From Fulvivirga sp. M361 (lineage in GTDB: Bacteria > Bacteroidota > Bacteroidia > Cytophagales > Cyclobacteriaceae): 64,000 nucleotides of DNA. Within the stretch, counting starts at the first letter, position 1, and every line of letters begins with the position of its first letter. Below, in pieces: positions 5,025-59,315 of this stretch. The DNA is taken from NCBI RefSeq assembly GCF_007097395.1, contig NZ_VKDC01000009.1, positions 248,001 through 312,000 of the forward strand, given 5' to 3'. The translations under genes and the position numbers were made by a program. The notes below the pieces were generated by a model. The model was not told the origin of the DNA and made no database searches. It saw only the letters and a program-made list of their open reading frames with translations.

Positions 5025-5924
5025 ATGAGTAAAGGGAAAGAATTAAAGCGTGAAGAAAAAAATAATCGACTTGCCATATTTGAAGGAGCAGAGATTAGAA
5101 AAGTCTATTTTGACCATGATTGGTATTATGTAATTGAAGATATAATAAAAGCATTAACAGACTCGAAAGACCCAAAAGGATATATCAAAGATATGCGGAG
5201 AAGGGATAAAGAGTTATCTAAAGGGTGGGGGCAAATTGCCACCCCCCTTCCTATTGAAACCAAAGGAGGCAAGCAACTCATTAATTGTGCAAATAATGAG
5301 GGTGTATTAAGACTCGTTCAAACAGTACCTTCCAAAAAAGCTGAACCTTTTAAAAGATGGTTGGCGAAAATTGGAGCCGAGAGAATCGAAGAGATCGAAC
5401 AACCCGCCAAGGCAATAGAACGAGCTAAAGGTTATTATTTACAAAAGGGATATTCTCCTGATTGGGTACAGACCAGAATTGCCGGTATTGACACAAGAGT
5501 AACATTCACAGATAAATTGAAAGAAAGTGGTATCAAAGAAGGCTTCCAATATGCTGTTTTGACAAATGAAATGTACGAATCCTGGTCTGGTTTTACAGCA
5601 GCTCAATACAAAGAACACAAGGGTATAAGCAAGAAGGATAGTTTGAGAGATAACATGACTCCAATGGAGTTGGCTACAACCCTATTCAGTGAAACAGCAG
5701 CAAAAGAGTTGATAGAAAAGTCAGGCGCAAAGGGATTTATTCAAACCAAAAATCAGATACATATCGCAGGAAATATTACGAAAGAAGCTTTAACTAAACT
5801 TGAAAAAGAAACAGGTAAAAAAGTAGTGACGCATGAAAATATGAAGTCTCTTAACAGTGTTAAAGTACAAAAAGAGCTTGCCCAAAGTAAGTCAGATAAC
5901 GCCGAAGCCCCGGATGAAGAATAA
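5025..5924 (+). CDS. Bro-N domain protein (phage antirepressor/DinD-like)
   Basis: Residues about 15-120 read as a Bro-N domain: LAIFEGAEIRKVYFDHDWYY, then a VIEDIIKALTDSKDPKGYIK helix and the AEPFKRWLAKIGAERIEEI segment that ends Bro-N domains. The C-terminal half (about 130-260) resembles the helical partner domain of DNA-damage-inducible DinD-type proteins (TNEMYESWSGFTAAQYKEHK). Bro-N proteins bind DNA and are common as phage antirepressors, but no phage structural genes are nearby, so this may be a domesticated or stranded gene. It has its own AT-rich upstream region and no operon partner. Confidence 0.8.
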   Translation: MSKGKELKREEKNNRLAIFEGAEIRKVYFDHDWYYVIEDIIKALTDSKDPKGYIKDMRRRDKELSKGWGQIATPLPIETKGGKQLINCANNEGVLRLVQTVPSKKAEPFKRWLAKIGAERIEEIEQPAKAIERAKGYYLQKGYSPDWVQTRIAGIDTRVTFTDKLKESGIKEGFQYAVLTNEMYESWSGFTAAQYKEHKGISKKDSLRDNMTPMELATTLFSETAAKELIEKSGAKGFIQTKNQIHIAGNITKEALTKLEKETGKKVVTHENMKSLNSVKVQKELAQSKSDNAEAPDEE

Positions 5925-6173: not shown

Positions 6174-6557
6174 ATGAATGTAGTCAGACATAGTATCATT
6201 GCACTGTTAGTGTTCAGTATGCTTAGCAGCTCCCTGATGATACCATTGGTATATCTCGATTTTGAGATAAGACGAGACTACATTGCTGAAGTATTGTGTG
6301 TCAAAAAAGATGAACCCATCACCGTGTGTGGGGGCCAGTGCTTTCTCAATAACCAGCTGGAGCAGGCAAGGCAGCAACAGGAAAGTAACGATGAAAAGAC
6401 TACACACAGATACACCGTAGATCTTTATTCATACCATGATCCATTGCCTGCAATTTCTAATAAAAGTATTCCTTTTAGCGCTTCATTTTTTACTGTGAAT
6501 GAAGAGCTATATCTCAATCTGTTTGTGAACCGGATCTTTCACCCCCCTCAGGCTTAA
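6174..6557 (+). CDS. Small exported/membrane-anchored protein with CGGxCFL motif (copy 1)
   Basis: A 127-residue protein with one hydrophobic N-terminal segment (residues 7-27) followed by LDFEIRRDYIAEVLCVKK and the motif CGGQCFL (Cys42, Cys52, Cys56). It ends IFHPPQA. A clear paralog sits at 9607 with the same order: hydrophobic segment, YLDF, VLC, EPITVCGG-C, and a C-terminal IFxPP. Related Bacteroidota proteins with a CNGKCYL-type motif are familiar as small proteins of unknown function. Three conserved cysteines outside the membrane suggest metal or redox chemistry; copper is inferred only from the MbnP/MbnH neighbours. First gene of the cluster. Confidence 0.75.
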   Translation: MNVVRHSIIALLVFSMLSSSLMIPLVYLDFEIRRDYIAEVLCVKKDEPITVCGGQCFLNNQLEQARQQQESNDEKTTHRYTVDLYSYHDPLPAISNKSIPFSASFFTVNEELYLNLFVNRIFHPPQA

Positions 6558-6658
6558 CTAAGCGCCCCACTACTTTTTTTTAACACTCAAGCCTTATTTC
6601 GTTGCCATCAACGCAGTTATAGGCATGGGTTTTTATTCACCGATGAACAGTATTGATA

Positions 6659-7531
6659 ATGAAATTTTATAATCTTTTTTTCTTACCCCTATTTTTATTC
6701 GCCCTGATCAGTTGCGATAGCGATGATGATGCAACCCTTTCCGGCGAACCTGGCACAGTAGCCTTAAAATTTGATAATATAGCGCCCAGCAGCACTTCTG
6801 ATGACAATGTAAACCTTGTCCTGCTAGAGCCTGGTTCTACTACCTTCGCCTATAGAAATGATATGGACCAGGAGTTTAACGTTACCGTTCTGAAATACCT
6901 GATCTCAGAAGTTAAATTAACAGGACCTAATGGGGAAGAATTTATCAACCCCATGGAGATCACCGCTGACGATGCAAAAGGGTATTATCTTGTTGACCAA
7001 AAGAACTTGCTCACCAGTGGAAGGTTTTCGCTCAGTGATGTGCCCGCAGGCACTTACGATCAGATATCTTTTACGGTAGGCGTAGAAGAAGAAGGGGTGG
7101 CTGAAGGCGCTGCCGGAGGGGTACTGTCTCAGGGCAATGGGGCCCGTGACGCGGATATGTTCTGGAACTGGAATGTAGGCTACCAGGCGATAAGAATGGA
7201 AGGGTTTGCCCCTGCATCTCCTGCTGACGGAGAGCAGGTAGCGGCGTTTGGAGAAAGCGTCAATGAAACGGATGTGGACGGTTTTGCTTTTCACGTCGGT
7301 GGCTGGGCTAACCCTAATAACAACCGGGAGGTGACCATTGAGATAGATCCGATCACGGTAGCGGCCAATACGGCTCCTGAGATCCATCTGGTGTTTGATG
7401 TATCAGAGTTTTTAGGGGGTATCAATGACATTGATTTTTCCAAGACATTCAATGTACATAGTCCCACGTCAGCAGAGCCATTGGCTAATAACGCTGCCAG
7501 GGCTTTCAAATTTGATCATATCCATAACTGA
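6659..7531 (+). CDS. mbnP: MbnP-family copper-binding lipoprotein
   Basis: Lipoprotein signal with lipobox ALISC (Cys19). The 290-residue protein shows the MbnP-like pattern: an N-terminal VALKFDNIAP strand, EFNVTVLKYLISEVKL, DVPAGTYDQISFTVGV, and the diagnostic DMFWNWNVGYQAIRMEG (Trp169, Trp171) followed by FAFHVGGW (His212, Trp216). In studied MbnP proteins the partner diheme enzyme MbnH converts a tryptophan to kynurenine, which then helps bind copper. The gene lies 35 bp upstream of an MbnH-like gene, so the pair is intact. A TTG six bases upstream is a less likely start. Which Trp is modified is not decidable here. Confidence 0.88.
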   Translation: MKFYNLFFLPLFLFALISCDSDDDATLSGEPGTVALKFDNIAPSSTSDDNVNLVLLEPGSTTFAYRNDMDQEFNVTVLKYLISEVKLTGPNGEEFINPMEITADDAKGYYLVDQKNLLTSGRFSLSDVPAGTYDQISFTVGVEEEGVAEGAAGGVLSQGNGARDADMFWNWNVGYQAIRMEGFAPASPADGEQVAAFGESVNETDVDGFAFHVGGWANPNNNREVTIEIDPITVAANTAPEIHLVFDVSEFLGGINDIDFSKTFNVHSPTSAEPLANNAARAFKFDHIHN

Positions 7532-7566
7532 TCACCGGTTATTCTTTAAAATCATAAGATAAAAGA

Positions 7567-8610
7567 ATGAACTTTATTGAAAGGTTCTTAGCAGCCATAG
7601 TTTGCGCCGTTGTTCTGGCGGCATGCCATGACGACACAGGCTTAGCTCCTAATGAAGCGTTTGAGTTTAAGGTTCCGGAAAATTTTCCGGAGCCCACCTA
7701 CACGTTTAAAAACAATCCGGTATCCAGGGAAGGTTTTGAATTGGGAAAAAAACTCTTTTTCGACCCGGTACTTTCCCGTGATCAGACCATTGCTTGCAGC
7801 AGCTGCCATGCACAGTCCGTCGCTTTTGCCGATCCGCAACACAGGCTCAGTATTGGTATTGAAGACCGCATTGGTAAACGTAACGCTCCACAGATCGCCA
7901 ACCTGGCTTTCCAGTCCTCATTCTTTTGGGATGGAGGGGTTACACATGTTGATTTCATACCGGTAAATGCCATTGAAAATGAGCTGGAAATGGATAACGA
8001 TATCTCGGTGATCTTAGCGCGCTTAAGGGCCGATGAAGATTATAAAGATCGTTTCGAAGCCGTATTCGGTGGTGATACGATTAACTCAGGCCGGTTATTA
8101 CATACCCTTTCCCAGTTTATGGTGATGCTGGTATCTGCTGATTCCAGGTATGACAAACACGTTCGTAACGAAGGTGAAACCCTGACGAAAGAAGAACTGG
8201 AAGGTAGAGTGATCTTTGAAAATAAGTGCAGCAACTGCCATTCAGGAACACTTTTTACCAACGGGGGTTTTGCTAATAACGGACTGGAAAGTGATTTCAG
8301 CAGGGATACCGGCAGAGCAATTATCACTGAACGGACTGATGACATCGGAAAGTTTAAAATACCGAGCTTAAGAAATGTAGCGCTTACCAGCCCGTATATG
8401 CATGACGGCCGTTTTGAAACACTTGAGGAAGTGCTGGAGCATTATTCAGATGGTGTGGTAGACTCACCTACGTTAGCCTCGGAGCTTCGGAAAGACGATG
8501 GTTTTGGCATTGCACTAAGCGATGTAGAGCAACAAAAGATCATTGCTTTTTTGAATACGCTTACGGATAACGAATTCATCATAGACGAACGATTCAGGAG
8601 AAATAACTAG
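7567..8610 (+). CDS. mbnH: MbnH-like diheme c-type peroxidase/oxygenase (MauG family), lipoprotein
   Basis: Lipobox VLAAC (Cys20), so anchored outside the inner membrane. Two heme c sites are present, CSSCH (77-81) and CSNCH (221-225), in the arrangement of the bacterial cytochrome c peroxidase/MauG family, with the family motifs KKLFFDPVLSRD, NAPQIANLAF, FFWDGG and SPYMHDGRF. At 347 residues it is of normal length. MbnH enzymes use peroxide chemistry to oxidise a tryptophan of MbnP; the adjacent mbnP gene supports that role over a simple peroxidase. It is followed after three bases by the barrel gene, implying a tight operon. Confidence 0.88.
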   Translation: MNFIERFLAAIVCAVVLAACHDDTGLAPNEAFEFKVPENFPEPTYTFKNNPVSREGFELGKKLFFDPVLSRDQTIACSSCHAQSVAFADPQHRLSIGIEDRIGKRNAPQIANLAFQSSFFWDGGVTHVDFIPVNAIENELEMDNDISVILARLRADEDYKDRFEAVFGGDTINSGRLLHTLSQFMVMLVSADSRYDKHVRNEGETLTKEELEGRVIFENKCSNCHSGTLFTNGGFANNGLESDFSRDTGRAIITERTDDIGKFKIPSLRNVALTSPYMHDGRFETLEEVLEHYSDGVVDSPTLASELRKDDGFGIALSDVEQQKIIAFLNTLTDNEFIIDERFRRNN

Positions 8611-8613
8611 ACT

Positions 8614-9585
8614 ATGCATAAAATGAAAAATATATTACTATTGAGCATAGGGCTAGTAATATTAGCACCAAAAGCCTATGGCTGTGATGTCTGCGGATGT
8701 AAGCTGGGTGGGTATTCCATGGGTATACTGCCCCAGTTTGACAATCATTTCATAGGCCTACGCTATAGCCATGCCAGTTTTAACGCCTATATTGACAACC
8801 GGCTGACGGAAGATGAATTTTCTAACGATACCTACCGGAGAATAGACCTGATAGGCAGGTACAGCCTGTCTTCCAAGGTGCAGCTCAGCTTTATGTTGCC
8901 CTTTATCAGTAATGACATGGATGGTAATGTGCAATCCGTGGAATCTCAGGGCATCGGTGACCCGATGGTGTTAATAAACTATAACCTGTGGAATAACGCA
9001 GATAATCCGGGTTCACTTTGGAACCATTCCTTGTTGGTAGGCGGAGGCATAAAACTTCCTTTTGGTGATGATGACAAGTTAGATAATGATGAACTCATTA
9101 ATCGCAACTTTCAACTGGGAACCGGAAGTGTGGATTATGTATTCTCACTGAACTATGCTGTGCGCAGACAAAACATAGGCCTGAACCTGGAGTCTGCTTA
9201 TCAGATCAATGGTACCAATGATGTAGATTATACCTTCGGCAACCAGTTTAACGCCAGCTTATATACTTTTTACTGGTGGCAAAGGCCAAATTTTGTGCTG
9301 TTACCGTATTTGGGAGGCTATTTCGAAAAAGCCCAAAAGCATTACGATGGTGATATTGAACAAGTCAATACAGGTGGCAAAGCGCTTTTTGCTACCACAG
9401 GCCTTCAACTGATGGTAGGGCGGTTTATGCTGGACGCCAGGTACCAGGCACCACTGTATCAACAATTCAACGCAGAAGAAATTGTGTCTATTGAATCTGA
9501 CGACCGCTACACAGTCGGGGTGAATTTTAGCATCGGGAAAAGGAAAAAATCAAACCGGAAGAATATAGATAAGCTTTACAACTGA
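8614..9585 (+). CDS. Outer-membrane beta-barrel protein with N-terminal CDVCGC motif
   Basis: Signal peptide ending near KAYG, directly followed by CDVCGC (Cys24, 27, 29 from the first ATG) and LGGYSMGILPQF. The rest consists of alternating beta strands (HFIGLRYSHASF, VQLSFMLPFIS, YTVGVNFSIG) typical of small transporter-like outer-membrane barrels in Bacteroidota. A second ATG at 8623 would also keep the signal peptide. The mature N-terminus with three closely spaced cysteines could bind a soft metal. Between mbnH and the second CGGxC protein, it may be the channel or surface site of the system; this role is inferred from context. Confidence 0.7.
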   Translation: MHKMKNILLLSIGLVILAPKAYGCDVCGCKLGGYSMGILPQFDNHFIGLRYSHASFNAYIDNRLTEDEFSNDTYRRIDLIGRYSLSSKVQLSFMLPFISNDMDGNVQSVESQGIGDPMVLINYNLWNNADNPGSLWNHSLLVGGGIKLPFGDDDKLDNDELINRNFQLGTGSVDYVFSLNYAVRRQNIGLNLESAYQINGTNDVDYTFGNQFNASLYTFYWWQRPNFVLLPYLGGYFEKAQKHYDGDIEQVNTGGKALFATTGLQLMVGRFMLDARYQAPLYQQFNAEEIVSIESDDRYTVGVNFSIGKRKKSNRKNIDKLYN

Positions 9586-9606
9586 TCGATAAGGAATTCT
9601 CATGCT

Positions 9607-10014
9607 ATGAATGGACCCATGAACAACCCAAAAAGGATACTTTCTGTTGTCCTGGTCATTTTATTAATGACCAATGCCTTGCTGGTGCCATTCATCTACC
9701 TTGATTTTAATTTGAGAAAAGATTTCATCGCGCGTGTACTTTGCCGGAAAAAAGAGGAGCCTATTACCGTTTGTGGGGGCTCTTGTTACCTGAAAGAGCA
9801 ACTCAGGAAAGTAACGGAACCACAGGGTACAGAAACAAACCGACATAAGTCGACGCCGGAAACATTCTTCTACTATGAAAAAATAACCCCCATTAAGTAT
9901 TCCACACACCTATTTTCTTACCTCTTTCACCGACAAAAGCACCATCACTCCTATTATACTTCTCATTTTTTATCTGCTATATTCCGGCCTCCCCGCAGCT
10001 ATTTTTTCTGCTAG
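9607..10014 (+). CDS. Small exported/membrane-anchored protein with CGGxCYL motif (copy 2)
   Basis: Paralog of the protein at 6174: hydrophobic segment (residues 11-31), FIYLDFNLRKDFIARVLC, EPITVCGGSCYL (Cys46, Cys56, Cys60) and the C-terminal IFRPP. It additionally has a His-rich stretch (HRQKHHHSYYTSH) before the end and a terminal Cys. An internal ATG at 9619 is an alternative start. Its position immediately before the TonB receptor mirrors copy 1 immediately before mbnP, as if each heads a sub-module. Function unknown; metal handling is inferred from cysteines, histidines and context. Confidence 0.72.
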   Translation: MNGPMNNPKRILSVVLVILLMTNALLVPFIYLDFNLRKDFIARVLCRKKEEPITVCGGSCYLKEQLRKVTEPQGTETNRHKSTPETFFYYEKITPIKYSTHLFSYLFHRQKHHHSYYTSHFLSAIFRPPRSYFFC

Positions 10015-10099
10015 CCGAACTACCACCCCGGACCATAACCAATCGCCCGGCTTCAGAAGGTAGAAAACACACTTTATTCACATGATCTGAAACCACAAA

Positions 10100-12517
10100 A
10101 TGAACAGACTATACAGGATGGTAGTTGGACTTCTTTGTTTCATTACCTTATCCCAAGCTCAAAATGTCACCGGAAAAGTGACGGAAAACAATGGTGAGCG
10201 TATCGCCAATGCTACGATTGCCGTATTGAATACAAACCACGGAACAGCTACGGACGAAGAGGGTAATTTTCAATTAACCCTTCCCCCCGGTGCTTATACC
10301 CTTTCCGTAAGCGCTATAGGGTATGCTTCGGCCATAGAGCCTATTGTCGTGGACACCAGTAACACGGTCGTAAACATTCCATTGGAAGAAAGCTCTACCA
10401 CGTTGGACGAGGTAGTGGTAAGCGCGCAACGTACTGAGCAGAACATTATTAAAACCCCGGTATCTGTAACATCACTTTCTTCCCGAAAGATAGAAGATAC
10501 CCGGATCTGGGAGTTGGAAGATTTAAATGCACTGGTGCCCAATTATTACTATGGGGAAATCGGCGTTGGATTTCAACAAATTCAGAGCATACGCGGTATC
10601 TCAGTGTTCAGCGAAAATCCTGCGATAGCTACCTATATCGATGGAGTGAACCAACTCGATATTTTAGCGAACGGATTTCAGTTGACGGATATAGAAAGCA
10701 TTGAGGTACTACGAGGGCCGCAAGGCACCCTTTTCGGAAGAAACGCCATGGGTGGGGTGATCAACATTGTGACCAAAAAGCCTACCAATAAGACGTCAGC
10801 CCATGTACAGGTGAGTGCTGGTAACCTGGGACTTCAGCGTTATGCCTTTGGTGTGAAGGCGCCGCTGCTGAAGAATAAACTTTATGTTGGGCTGACCGGA
10901 CTTTATCAGTCACATGAAGGCTTTTTAAGGAATGATACTACCGGTACCGTGGATATACAGCCTGGTGCACAAGGGGCTAGGGTGGGTGACGAAACATCGT
11001 ATTACGGTAATCTGCATTTGAAATGGTTAGTCAATGACCGCTTTGATGCAGCTTTAAACGTTAAAGCACAGCTAGACGATTCTGATGCCAGTAATTTCTT
11101 CATTTACCAGGCGAACGACAGCCTGGCAAAAGCGAATCCTGATCAGGTACGGTTGGGTAGGGTGGGTGAGCACAGGAGGGATGTGGTGAACACCGCCCTT
11201 TCTATGAATTATTATACACCGGATGTTACGTTATCTTCTACAAGTACCTATCAGATGATAGGGTTATCGTACGATAACATTTATGAGGCTAATCCCGGGT
11301 TCGGAGGTACATTTTATGCCTCTCATAAAGACGGTGACTTCGGGGTACGGTCCGAACCGCAAAAGGTCTTCACACAGGAGTTAAAGATCACCTCAGCAAA
11401 TGAAAAAACCGGACTCAACTACACGGGTGGTGTTTTTTATTTTAATCAAACGGCTTTTGAACCCACTACGAACATCGGGATCAACTATGGCCCGCTGGTA
11501 GGGCCTGTTTTCGTTCCCGGATATACCGCTGATACCTACGTGGTTTTTAAAAACAATGGTGAAAATTATGGTTTTGCCGCTTTTGGCCAGTTGTCTAATG
11601 ACATCACGGACCGGCTGACCCTTACGGCAGGTTTTCGCTATGATTATGAAAAAAGGGAGAATACCTTCAATGGATTTGGAGACCTGATCTACCAGGGAGG
11701 GGAAGAAATAGAATTCAAACAGGACACCTCTTTAAGTGTTGACTTCAGCGCCTTTTCTCCAAAGGTGGCCTTATCATTCAAGCCCAGTAAGACGTCCAAT
11801 GCCTACTTTAGCTATACAAGAGGCTTTCGGGCAGGAGGGATCAACACCCAGCGCATTCAGGACGTTGACCTGACTTTTGACCCGGAATATTCGGATAATG
11901 TGGAAGTGGGATACAAAGGAAATTTTCTGCAAAACCGATTGTTCTTCGCCTCCACAGCCTACTACATCCATTGGGATGATATCCAGTTTTTTAACCAGGT
12001 GTCCCCTAACGTATTTTTAACGGACAACGTAGGCAGCGCTATTTCTTACGGACTGGAACTGGAAATGTCAGCCATTCCGCTGAAAAACTTACAGTTTGAT
12101 GCCGCCTACGGGGTAAATGAATCCGAGTATCAGGATTTTACACTAAACTCAGGCGGAGAAACAGTACAGTTAGAAGGAAACAGACTGGCCAACACACCGA
12201 CCTCTACCCTCTTTTTGGGAATGCAATATGACGTTCCTCTGTTTTTTGACATAAACTTAATGGGGCGCTTAGAGCTGCGGCGAACGGGTGAGTTGTTTTC
12301 CGATAGGGAGAATGACCTTGTCATTGACCCATATCATCTCGTCAATACCAAATGGGGGATTTCGTACCGCAACCAACTGGACGTGTCCTTTTGGGTAAGA
12401 AACCTGGACAACCAACGCTACATTGCTTATGCCTCCCCCAGCACTATCGGGGGTAATCGAAATTCACTGAGCTCTGCGCCGAGGACTTACGGAATTACAT
12501 TTACCGCAAAATTTTAA
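10100..12517 (+). CDS. TonB-dependent outer-membrane receptor
   Basis: An 805-residue receptor. Signal peptide to about residue 20; a carboxypeptidase-regulatory-like domain at about 22-105 (VTGKVTENNGERIANATIAV), usual in Bacteroidota receptors; a plug domain starting LDEVVVSAQRTEQ and containing IEVLRGPQGTLFGRNAMGG; then a barrel ending in a C-terminal Phe (ITFTAKF). These proteins import scarce chelated ligands using the TonB/ExbBD energy system. No SusD partner is present, so a metal chelate or other small ligand fits better than a glycan. Its position after mbnP/mbnH suggests a copper complex, which is inference; siderophore receptors have the same architecture. Confidence 0.88.
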   Translation: MNRLYRMVVGLLCFITLSQAQNVTGKVTENNGERIANATIAVLNTNHGTATDEEGNFQLTLPPGAYTLSVSAIGYASAIEPIVVDTSNTVVNIPLEESSTTLDEVVVSAQRTEQNIIKTPVSVTSLSSRKIEDTRIWELEDLNALVPNYYYGEIGVGFQQIQSIRGISVFSENPAIATYIDGVNQLDILANGFQLTDIESIEVLRGPQGTLFGRNAMGGVINIVTKKPTNKTSAHVQVSAGNLGLQRYAFGVKAPLLKNKLYVGLTGLYQSHEGFLRNDTTGTVDIQPGAQGARVGDETSYYGNLHLKWLVNDRFDAALNVKAQLDDSDASNFFIYQANDSLAKANPDQVRLGRVGEHRRDVVNTALSMNYYTPDVTLSSTSTYQMIGLSYDNIYEANPGFGGTFYASHKDGDFGVRSEPQKVFTQELKITSANEKTGLNYTGGVFYFNQTAFEPTTNIGINYGPLVGPVFVPGYTADTYVVFKNNGENYGFAAFGQLSNDITDRLTLTAGFRYDYEKRENTFNGFGDLIYQGGEEIEFKQDTSLSVDFSAFSPKVALSFKPSKTSNAYFSYTRGFRAGGINTQRIQDVDLTFDPEYSDNVEVGYKGNFLQNRLFFASTAYYIHWDDIQFFNQVSPNVFLTDNVGSAISYGLELEMSAIPLKNLQFDAAYGVNESEYQDFTLNSGGETVQLEGNRLANTPTSTLFLGMQYDVPLFFDINLMGRLELRRTGELFSDRENDLVIDPYHLVNTKWGISYRNQLDVSFWVRNLDNQRYIAYASPSTIGGNRNSLSSAPRTYGITFTAKF

Positions 12518-12538
12518 CCACTCAGAAACTTTCTTAAA

Positions 12539-13414
12539 ATGAAAAATTTAAAATACTCCCATTATTTTCTATGGACCACCCTAGCGATAACAGGCACATT
12601 GAGCTGCAAGCCTCCCCAAACGGAGGAAACAGGCCCTGCAAATACCACAAAAAAAGAAGCTACAGGAGCGATAGAGATCACGCCGGAAAATCATGATGAT
12701 AAGATGAGCAGTGTTTTGGGTACGCCAAAACATAACATCCGGTCCATTGGCATTTTAGTCTACGACGGTGTCAATATCCTTGATGTTATGGGTCCGCGAT
12801 ATGTATTGGGTCAGGTCATGGGCGCTAAAACGGAATTGATAGCTGTCAATCCAGGGAACATCAAAACGGTGATGGGCGTGGAGCTGGTACCTAACACCGT
12901 TATGGATTCGGTAGATCAGTTAGACATACTGGTGGTCCCCGGAGGTTTTAAAGGGACCCTACTTGGCGCTTACGACAGTAGAATACATCAATGGATCAAA
13001 AAGATAGATCAGACGTCAACCTATACCACGTCCGTCTGTACTGGCGGTTGGATATTAGGCGCCGCAGGCTTGCTCAAAGGCCGAAAAGCGACTACTAACT
13101 GGTACCAGGCAGAAGAAATGTTAAAAAGATATGGGGCCACTTTCGTTAAGGAACGCTACGTAAATGACGGTAAGTACTGGACTTCGGCCGGGGTTACGGC
13201 AGGTATGGATATGTCGCTGGCCATATTAAATGATCTGTATGGCGAGAACTATACCCAGGCCGTGATGCTGGACATGGAGTACGATCCGGCACCACCTATC
13301 AAAGGCGGCAGCCCTGAAAAGACTGTCCCGGAGGTATACCAGATGATGGAAGCGATGTACGCTATGGGGATAGTGCCATTGCTGGATAGCTTGGATGGGG
13401 TGATTGGGAAGTGA
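12539..13414 (+). CDS. DJ-1/PfpI-family lipoprotein, isonitrile-hydratase-like
   Basis: Lipobox GTLSC (Cys23), then a linker and a DJ-1/PfpI fold from about residue 66: IGILVYDGVNILDVMGPRYV, LDILVVPGGF, and the nucleophile elbow SVCTGGWILGAAGLLKG with Cys167. The stretch RKATTNWYQAEEMLKRYGA and SAGVTAGMDMSLAIL resembles isonitrile hydratase (InhA) and the sensor domain of GlxA-type regulators. It lies 21 bp after the TonB receptor and is the last gene of the cluster. Substrate is unknown; hydrolysis of an isonitrile copper chelator would fit the context but is speculation. A second, more distant DJ-1 lipoprotein is at 58560. Confidence 0.82.
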   Translation: MKNLKYSHYFLWTTLAITGTLSCKPPQTEETGPANTTKKEATGAIEITPENHDDKMSSVLGTPKHNIRSIGILVYDGVNILDVMGPRYVLGQVMGAKTELIAVNPGNIKTVMGVELVPNTVMDSVDQLDILVVPGGFKGTLLGAYDSRIHQWIKKIDQTSTYTTSVCTGGWILGAAGLLKGRKATTNWYQAEEMLKRYGATFVKERYVNDGKYWTSAGVTAGMDMSLAILNDLYGENYTQAVMLDMEYDPAPPIKGGSPEKTVPEVYQMMEAMYAMGIVPLLDSLDGVIGK

Positions 13415-13723
13415 CCGTATGCCCAATGACATCAATGTACTGAGCACGTAGCTAAGGTCTATTGCTACTTGACTCTCTTCGGGTTCTTGTAAGGGGCTTG
13501 AGGAGGGGGTTACTTTCTATTTGAGTTCGGGATGCTCAAACTCGCATTAGAAATACTAAATCTTAAAAGAAAATGGGAGCGCATTACACTTTGCTAAATG
13601 CGCTCCAGAAGGAAGACGAAAAAGTAGCGATGCCGGAGAAGCTTTTGGGGGTAAAAAGTAAGTCTGAATTTATTTTACCTGATTGCAGCAACCTTTGTAC
13701 GTAATTCCGTCAACTTATGGATG
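13415..13723. other. Intergenic region with a degenerate B-repeat
   Basis: No gene is seen. Bases 13500-13560 (TTACTTTCTATTTG, then GCATTAGAAATACTAAAT) are a decayed copy of the first half of the B repeat described at 30584. The rest has no recognised signal. Confidence 0.4.
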
Positions 13724-58559: not shown

Positions 58560-59315
58560 TTATTTTTTCCAATTTTGAAGTCGGTCGATATATAAATAGC
58601 TTTCGATAAATTTCCTGTGTTCGGTACTCGTCATTTTTTCTACTAAATTCAGAGCCGAAATGTAGCTCGTTAAATTTCCGTTCGACGAACTAAATTTTCC
58701 GTCCTCAACAAAGGTTACTAAACTATCATTTTGAACTTTTAAATCCGGGTATTCCTTCTGTAACTGTTTCCCGCCACCAATATAGGTCACGATTTTATGT
58801 CCATTTGCAATTCCCGACTTTCCAATAAGCTGTGCCCCGGCACAATTACTTACTACATATTCGGTTTCTTTGTTTTTCGTTTGAATAAACTCTACCAATT
58901 GGTCATTATTGACCTGAGCATACATATCATAGCCACTGGGAACAAATAAAGCGGTTAATTTGGGGCAATTTTCAAAAGTGTAATCAGGAATAAATCGCAT
59001 ACCTTCTTCAGTAGTGATTGGATTTTCCGTTTGCGCTATGGTTATTACATTAAAGAGTTGTTTTCCGTTTTTGTTTGGTTTCCCAAAAACATCTGATGTT
59101 GCTATAACTTCTCCTTGCAAAACACCATTAAACATAAGAAGACCTATTGTTGGCAACTCGGATTTGAACGGTTTTAAGTGTTTTGTCAGCGTGTCAGATT
59201 GTGACTCAGCTTGATCAATATTCTCAATTTTGAGGTTGTTTTTTGACTTCTCGGTATTACAGTTAACAAAAATAGTTGCAAAAAAAAGTGTTGTTATAAG
59301 GCTTAAAGATTTCAT
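58560..59315 (-). CDS. DJ-1/PfpI-family lipoprotein
   Basis: 251 residues. Lipobox IFVNC (Cys19). The DJ-1 fold begins TIGLLMFNGVLQGEVIATSD, then KLTALFVPSGYDMYAQ and the nucleophile elbow VVSNCAGAQLIGKSGIANGH (Cys at the elbow). The sequence HKIVTYIGGGKQL follows as in PfpI/GATase1 proteins. It differs clearly from the isonitrile-hydratase-like relative at 12539. Role unknown; stress protection or sensing in the periplasm is possible. Confidence 0.78.
   Translation of the reverse strand: MKSLSLITTLFFATIFVNCNTEKSKNNLKIENIDQAESQSDTLTKHLKPFKSELPTIGLLMFNGVLQGEVIATSDVFGKPNKNGKQLFNVITIAQTENPITTEEGMRFIPDYTFENCPKLTALFVPSGYDMYAQVNNDQLVEFIQTKNKETEYVVSNCAGAQLIGKSGIANGHKIVTYIGGGKQLQKEYPDLKVQNDSLVTFVEDGKFSSSNGNLTSYISALNLVEKMTSTEHRKFIESYLYIDRLQNWKK

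Follow-up and report, generated by a model that had tools for sequence, protein, structure and literature searches.

The locus analysed here lies at positions 6174 to 13414 of a 64,000-nucleotide stretch of the genome of Fulvivirga sp. M361 (contig NZ_VKDC01000009.1; the whole stretch is called the window), and it consists of seven genes on the forward strand, two of which encode small cysteine proteins that are proposed below to act as copper-responsive leaders of the genes behind them. Leader 1 (6174..6557) is, from its sequence and a profile search, a predicted small exported protein of 127 residues; it carries a cysteine motif, C-x9-CGGQC (C42 to CGGQC 52-56; 6297..6341), delimited with an alignment of relatives, and a C-terminal IFHPP whose codons (6534..6548) would encode the arrest motif of a regulatory upstream open reading frame (uORF). 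A gap of 101 nucleotides with 24 C and 16 G (6558..6658), a possible place of control, separates it from the gene of an MbnP lipoprotein (6659..7531) with lipobox cysteine C19 followed by DSDDD, W169-x-W171, H212 and a terminal HxH. Then come an MbnH-like di-heme lipoprotein with two CxxCH motifs and Y293 (7567..8610), and a protein without profile name, with CDVCGC at its mature N-terminus, that is predicted to fold as an outer-membrane barrel (8614..9585). Leader 2 (9607..10014; 135 residues), a predicted small exported protein recognised in the same way, has the motif CGGSC and a C-terminal IFRPP (codons 9979..9993, likewise a proposed arrest motif); a gap of 85 nucleotides with 28 C and 12 G (10015..10099) leads to the gene of a TonB-dependent receptor (10100..12517), and a lipoprotein with a DJ-1/PfpI domain (12539..13414) ends the series. 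In order, the intergenic gaps measure 101, 35, 3, 21, 85 and 21 bases. The listed TTG start of mbnP (6653) is two codons 5′ of the ATG at 6659, from which residues are numbered. These genes, gaps and motifs bear out an earlier note on this DNA, which had reported seven forward genes with gaps of 3-101 bp and the motifs CGGxC, WNW, HVGGW, two CxxCH and CDVCGC (CGGQC and CGGSC; W169 and W171; H212). The Pro-Pro near the stop of each small protein is not in that note.

Pfam recognises MbnP (PF20243, 124.6 bits against a cut-off of 27), the di-heme protein (CCP_MauG, 170.2 against 25.6), the receptor (TonB barrel, 132.3 against 27) and the DJ-1 protein (DJ-1_PfpI, PF01965, 98 against 26.6). At E ≤ 0.1 it has no family for either small protein or for the barrel, and NCBIfam has no match for any of the three. 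W169, W171 and H212 are invariant in 41/41 MbnP relatives, with H243 and H287 present in 40 and H289 in 38; C77xxCH81, C221xxCH225 and Y293 of the di-heme protein are found in 28/28 relatives. The best NCBIfam family of the latter is MbnH (TIGR04039, 214.5 bits, under a cut-off of 362.85), and MbnP reaches 25.7 bits with TIGR04052, under a cut-off of 140. The identity proposed in the earlier note thus holds as regards PF20243, the conserved WxW, His and Tyr residues and the best family of the enzyme, but because the NCBIfam cut-offs are unmet the pair is termed MbnP/MbnH-like. In the known pair, MbnH converts a tryptophan of MbnP to kynurenine. The MbnP profile reaches a single PDB entry, 7l6g, and since this match is weak (4.9e-5) copper-ligand positions cannot be transferred by firm alignment. 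Lipobox cysteines (C19 of MbnP, C20 of the di-heme protein; C23 in the DJ-1 protein) are invariant in the MbnP and di-heme families, and at least two acidic residues stand in the next five places in 34/41 MbnP and 18/28 di-heme relatives. The CDSDDD of the window MbnP is like SDDDD, which has been inferred to direct lipoproteins of Bacteroides fragilis to the surface (PMC5080379), and a cell-surface location is plausible.

The same combination of a copper-binding partner and a di-heme MauG-like enzyme is found in MbnP/MbnH, MopE/SACCP and CorA/CorB, of which CorA and MopE employ kynurenine and can be repressed by copper (PMC3912023). Unlike those pairs, the window pair has beside it a barrel with a Cys motif as well as leader peptides, and no methanobactin gene was detected with it: as the earlier note had it, synthesis genes appear to be missing, MbnB (PF05114) having no match in the genome (8.1 Mb in 148 contigs, 97.55% complete; MbnC was not searched). 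It has already been described that MbnP/MbnH pairs also occur apart from methanobactin operons, in some cases near TonB receptors (PMC3621798). As for the barrel, no PDB relative found by sequence is convincing (best E 0.028), and Phenol_MetA_deg, a Pfam family of related meaning, is matched by only 2 of 41 barrel relatives. The receptor was also considered as an OprC-type protein, for which CxxxM and HxM form the copper motif (PMC11213822), and this assignment was rejected, its single cysteine lying in the signal segment and neither CxxxM nor HxM being present.

Comparison with relatives divides the locus into two modules, probably for copper handling, both with a leader in front. One, leader-MbnP-MbnH-barrel, is conserved and frequent among Bacteroidota; the other is leader-TonB-DJ1. 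PF20243 is present in 35 of 58 genomes, that of the window included. Scanning with the barrel alignment gave 454 encoding stretches, from which 80 loci were examined, 6 of them ending so near the barrel that their order is not judged. Among the 74 judged, leader-MbnP-MbnH-barrel occurs in 25, two leaders before the same genes in 12, MbnP-MbnH-barrel with no leader detected in 12 and leader-barrel alone in 12, beside rarer forms. A leader is detected by profile in 59 of the 74; in 14 of the remaining 15, a small open reading frame (ORF) without CxGxC but ending in Pro-Pro lies directly 5′ of MbnP, and in the fifteenth (L159) a leader-TonB pair lies at a greater distance upstream. Where the leader directly precedes the Cys-motif barrel, without MbnP/MbnH between them (L127, L128, L134, L135, L143, L144, L148, L152, L153, L156, L158 and L161), the two form a pair of their own. 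L128 comes from a record titled Candidatus Competibacteraceae, which is not Bacteroidota, presumably through bin contamination or transfer.

The seven genes were also considered as one conserved unit, which was rejected: their order is not repeated in the 80 barrel loci or in 47 MbnP loci, as far as the sequence reaches, and a barrel immediately followed by leader-TonB-DJ1 occurs in 0/80 barrel loci within the available sequence. L142 has a leader and a TonB gene 1.5 kb beyond the barrel. Conservation of gene order is therefore found for the core and not for the whole. In the congener L073, a leader and a small lipoprotein come first, followed by TonB, DJ-1, MbnP and the di-heme enzyme. Among the compared loci, the TonB and DJ-1 proteins of L073 are nearest to those of the window (821 and 403 bits), and its MbnP and MbnH exceed the NCBIfam cut-offs (242.2 against 140; 525.6 against 362.85). 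Here TonB-DJ1 is again associated with MbnP/MbnH, in an operon built differently from that of the window. The di-heme enzyme is longer in L073 and L077 (L073:9016-10716, 566 residues, with the MbnH domain at residues 223-558; L077:9027-10712, 561 residues). A small lipoprotein of about 150 residues follows leaders in the genus (L073:4405-4863, L077:7719-8186 and, in the window's own genome, L339:8091 on the minus strand); the L073 copy has no Pfam match. In another congener, L054, the core adjoins the gene of a copper-translocating P-type ATPase (TIGR01511, 608.5 bits against 397).

What distinguishes the small proteins that head these modules? A profile (A4) made from the N-terminal and cysteine region only, without C-terminal columns and with 27 rows (L036 and L045 of 29 were left out), matched 115 of 296 Bacteroidota genomes, and C42, C52, C56 and L58 are invariant in 29/29 rows. 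An N-terminal hydrophobic segment is seen in the sequence of both window leaders and may be a signal peptide of the kind that the filters for CutF-like proteins require. Leader 1 ends in ..RIFHPPQA and leader 2 in ..AIFRPPRSYFFC, with the Pro-Pro 2 and 6 residues from the end. The phylum set comprises 130 loci among the matches listed, taken mostly by E-value, with most of the weakest left out and leader 1 of the window included; 129 of these leaders have a Pro-Pro in their last 25 residues, 112 with just 2-4 residues after it. L280 lacks such a Pro-Pro, and in L287 it lies 17 residues from the end. Among the barrel loci with the window, 75 of 76 leaders are Pro-Pro-ended, the exception being L120 5620-5967, and in both sets joined the pair stands in the last 25 residues of 202/204 and in the last ten of 198/204; some of these loci come from genomes also used in training, for which C-terminal columns were left out of the profile. 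In the same loci, other gene-like ORFs, mechanical calls that may include false genes or unrecognised leaders, have it in the last 25 residues in 54/1367 and in the last ten in 37/1367 cases (38/543 and 29/543 for those under 250 residues).

The sequence around the Pro-Pro is also constrained, since the residue before it (n=129) is H in 72 and R in 19 leaders, and FHPP or FRPP occurs in 68. The distance from CxGxC to Pro-Pro, taken from leaders with a regular cysteine motif (112/130 of the phylum set, 182/204 of the joined sets), is 72.2 residues with a standard deviation of 2.3 (n=182), and exactly 72 in both window copies. When information is anchored on the Pro-Pro, the 45 upstream columns hold mostly 0.2-0.8 bits, I-F-[H/R] 1.5, 2.0 and 2.0, and each P 4.3 bits, as do the CxGxCxL columns. 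The spacer thus keeps its length where it does not keep its sequence. The proline codons at the pair are mixed (CCT 99, CCC 60, CCG 53, CCA 46), and selection therefore acts on the peptide. Leaders without CxGxC retain the Pro-Pro end in 14/14 cases; these lie directly before MbnP and have a single cysteine, or CGKTC or CGQTC (L102, L103, L104, L105, L110, L111, L113, L125, L130, L131, L136, L140, L087 and L089). In the window's own genome the pattern I-F-[H/Q/R]-P-P occurs 25 times, against 17 for its reversed control; 13 of the 25 lie at most nine residues from a stop, and only 4 of these 13 follow an open stretch of 60 codons or more; they are the genome's four family members.

The genes that leaders precede were identified as the longest same-strand ORF starting between -250 and +900 nucleotides from the leader stop, cut to 280 residues, and 3 of 130 leaders were without one. 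Of the 127 next ORFs, 54 match TonB plug, 31 MbnP, 10 YtkA, 6 SCO1/SenC, 5 Phenol_MetA_deg and 4 the di-heme MauG type. In the window's own genome, one further leader (L340) precedes a TonB receptor whose best NCBIfam match is the TonB-copper model (221.7 bits, under the cut-off of 472.45), and another (L339) a small lipoprotein. The gap from leader to next ORF has a median of 126 nucleotides (quartiles 78 and 214), and the 80 nucleotides after the leader stop have an excess of C over G: C minus G is +2.9 in the phylum set against -0.5 in controls (p=1.5e-6) and +1.8 in the barrel loci against -0.6 (p=7e-4). A measure of C-rich windows gives p=0.0045 in the phylum set, where terminator-like hairpins are rarer than in controls (7/128 against 22/85).

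We propose, with a probability of about 0.6, that the CGGxC leaders are copper-responsive regulatory uORFs, in which a stalled, half-made protein would switch the following genes. Once translation of the leader begins, its N-terminal hydrophobic segment would direct export during synthesis, and the ribosome would tend to stall on reaching the C-terminal I-F-[H/R]-P-P. By then the cysteine motif C-x9-CxGxC, 72 residues back, would be clear of the tunnel and across the membrane, where it could bind periplasmic copper. If the tunnel takes up about 30 residues and the membrane 17, as the CutF authors give it (PMC9973294), a motif 68-72 residues back would sit some 20-25 residues outside, in the periplasm. 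Copper binding would alter the dwell time of the ribosome and thereby switch the next genes. Because these are of uptake type, expression is expected at scarce copper, with shut-off when copper is present, perhaps via Rho in the C-rich gap. This would be the sense in which copper acts on CruR operons and on the copper-repressible CorA/CorB (PMC3912023). The first module would then provide MbnP, whose WxW tryptophan the MbnH-like enzyme would turn into kynurenine, completing the copper site, together with the Cys-motif outer-membrane barrel, and the second would supply the TonB receptor and the DJ-1 lipoprotein. A wider claim, to which we would give a little less than an even chance, is that Bacteroidota may run much of their copper handling through phylum-wide nascent-chain sensors without detectable relation to CruR/DUF2946, with an I-F-[H/R]-P-P code of their own and a 72-residue ruler that would place the cysteine sensor in the periplasm during the stall, allowing an unfinished protein to read the copper there directly.

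Two described systems are close to this proposal. CruR (DUF2946, PF11162), the leader of a copper TonB operon in Bordetella pertussis, is also a small exported ORF with a cysteine pair and a Pro-Pro near its end, standing at the head of an operon that includes a TonB receptor; copper relieves its stall at RAPP, upon which Rho cuts transcription of the TonB gene (PMC9426467), and its arrest has been demonstrated in vitro (PMC12992588). MbnPH-like genes may occur in CruR operons (PMC9426467). The window leaders differ from it in having CGGxC and an upstream cysteine instead of CXXC, IF[H/R]PP instead of RAPP, and 64 residues between the motifs in both copies instead of 45. PF11162 is found in 8 of 296 Bacteroidota genomes (5 over cut-off) and not in that of the window, and in the five genomes with both places listed its matches and the leaders lie apart. 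Among the rare Bacteroidota DUF2946 proteins (L296-L301), all six aligned have RAPP or RGPP at the end of the matched stretch. CutF of Rhodobacter capsulatus acts otherwise: copper prolongs a stall-like state, which opens a stem-loop and raises CutO (PMC9973294). CutF-like proteins share with the leaders CxxxC, a Pro-rich C-terminus and a next gene on the same strand, whereas CutF differs in a distance of 45 residues, in acting through a stem-loop and in the raising of CutO by copper. The published list holds 5,334 relatives, with Bacteroidota making up 19% raw and 40% normalised (PMC9973294), and since Bacteroidota are counted there the kind of leader is already known. Under the filters of that study, the window leaders are below 150 residues (127 and 135), have Pro-Pro in the last 15 and a next same-strand gene within 1000 nucleotides (101 and 85), and may themselves be on the list.

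RAPP-like arrest peptides (SecM, ApdA, ApdP and the RQH family) also place a C-terminal proline motif in a secreted uORF, and differ from the leaders in the residues before Pro-Pro and in their targets. Clusters of Pro-ending uORFs before sec genes have been reported only in Bacteroidota (PMC10987492), while RAPP/RGPP uORFs before copper-related genes are reported as missing from Bacteroidota and TonB-related ones as occurring throughout Gram-negatives (PMC12992588). In the available parts of the literature, we found no description of a unit made of leader, MbnP, MbnH and barrel, of an IF[H/R]PP end or of a ruler of 72 residues.

Could the leaders be something other than copper-relieved switches? 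The earlier note saw the two cysteine proteins as working with the pair in a copper pathway, and as membrane-anchored or periplasmic copper chaperones feeding MbnP or the TonB receptor, with Pro-Pro as a binding or stability element, they would make good sense of three invariant cysteines beside copper-type neighbours and of a hydrophobic segment suited to anchoring. A chaperone hardly explains, however, some 45 unconserved residues of fixed length or a Pro-Pro set against the stop, nor why the pair is retained in 14 leaders without CxGxC; cis-acting leaders fit these features better, and we regard the chaperone explanation as unlikely. Just as unlikely, in our estimate, is the same leader mechanism with reversed sense, by which copper would lengthen the stall and turn the operon on, MbnP/MbnH and the barrel then serving copper buffering or defence. 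CutF, with its CxxxC and Pro-rich end, works in this way (PMC9973294), and the core adjoins a copper-export ATPase gene in L054; against this, TonB receptors and MbnP predominate among the next genes, the analogous pair CorA/CorB is produced when copper is low (PMC3912023), and neither a stem-loop nor an unusual fold was found in the window gaps (z -0.62 at 6540-6680, z 0.76 at 9990-10120). The pair itself might not be MbnP/MbnH in function, the di-heme protein being an ordinary peroxidase that makes no kynurenine, an option that we rate lower still. Several peroxidases match it at 1e-30 or better, and the NCBIfam cut-offs are missed by both proteins; yet its closest PDB match is 6e1c, titled 'Di-heme enzyme' (3.5e-44), and the Y293 conserved in its 28 relatives falls on a Tyr of 6e1c in the alignment, at a position that is Met in the peroxidase 1iqc. 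We take this Tyr to be the MauG-type axial ligand. The invariance of WxW and H212 in the MbnP relatives also speaks against this option.

Several observations weigh against a copper-relieved nascent-chain switch and its copper-uptake setting. The window receptor lacks the OprC motif, and at 1e-10 the next genes match the TonB-hemin model in 34 cases and the TonB-copper model in 32; with such similar numbers, TonB models alone do not fix the cargo. Both window proteins of the MbnP/MbnH-like pair miss their NCBIfam cut-offs. The leaders have no PF11162 match (E ≤ 0.1) and align with DUF2946 at an hhalign probability of 0.3%, with six rows only on the DUF2946 side. The barrel set shows no deficit of terminator-like hairpins relative to controls (5/74 against 29/301), and its measure of C-rich windows is not significant (p=0.13); the folding strength of gap RNA does not differ from that of controls (p=0.17), and the p values for the gaps overstate, as the loci share ancestry. 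Finally, copper raises expression in CutF, the opposite of the sense expected here.

The occurrence of the family in 115 of 296 genomes, with a near-invariant Pro-Pro and a fixed ruler, yields sharp predictions for toeprinting and reporter assays, and the leaders offer a route from sequence to the copper operons of Bacteroidota. If the proposal is right, IF[H/R]PP would be a second Pro-Pro arrest code that can be compared with RAPP on other ribosomes, and small proteins unnamed in Pfam and NCBIfam would acquire a function. These findings also tie the TonB receptor and the DJ-1 lipoprotein to MbnP/MbnH.

Around the genes, a terminator-like hairpin on the forward strand (13473..13507), 59 nucleotides 3′ of the DJ-1 stop, is a consensus match that could mark the end of the unit; such sites number 15 in 9.7 kb, against 9.1 in shuffles. 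Sigma-70 promoter signals at the locus (19 sites against 19.7 expected) give no support for a promoter. Directly before leader 1, the window carries an ORF with a BRO N-terminal domain (5025-5924, forward strand; PF02498, 38.8 bits), of a kind found in phages and mobile genes, and a second, distant DJ-1 relative (38 bits) lies at 58560-59315 on the reverse strand.

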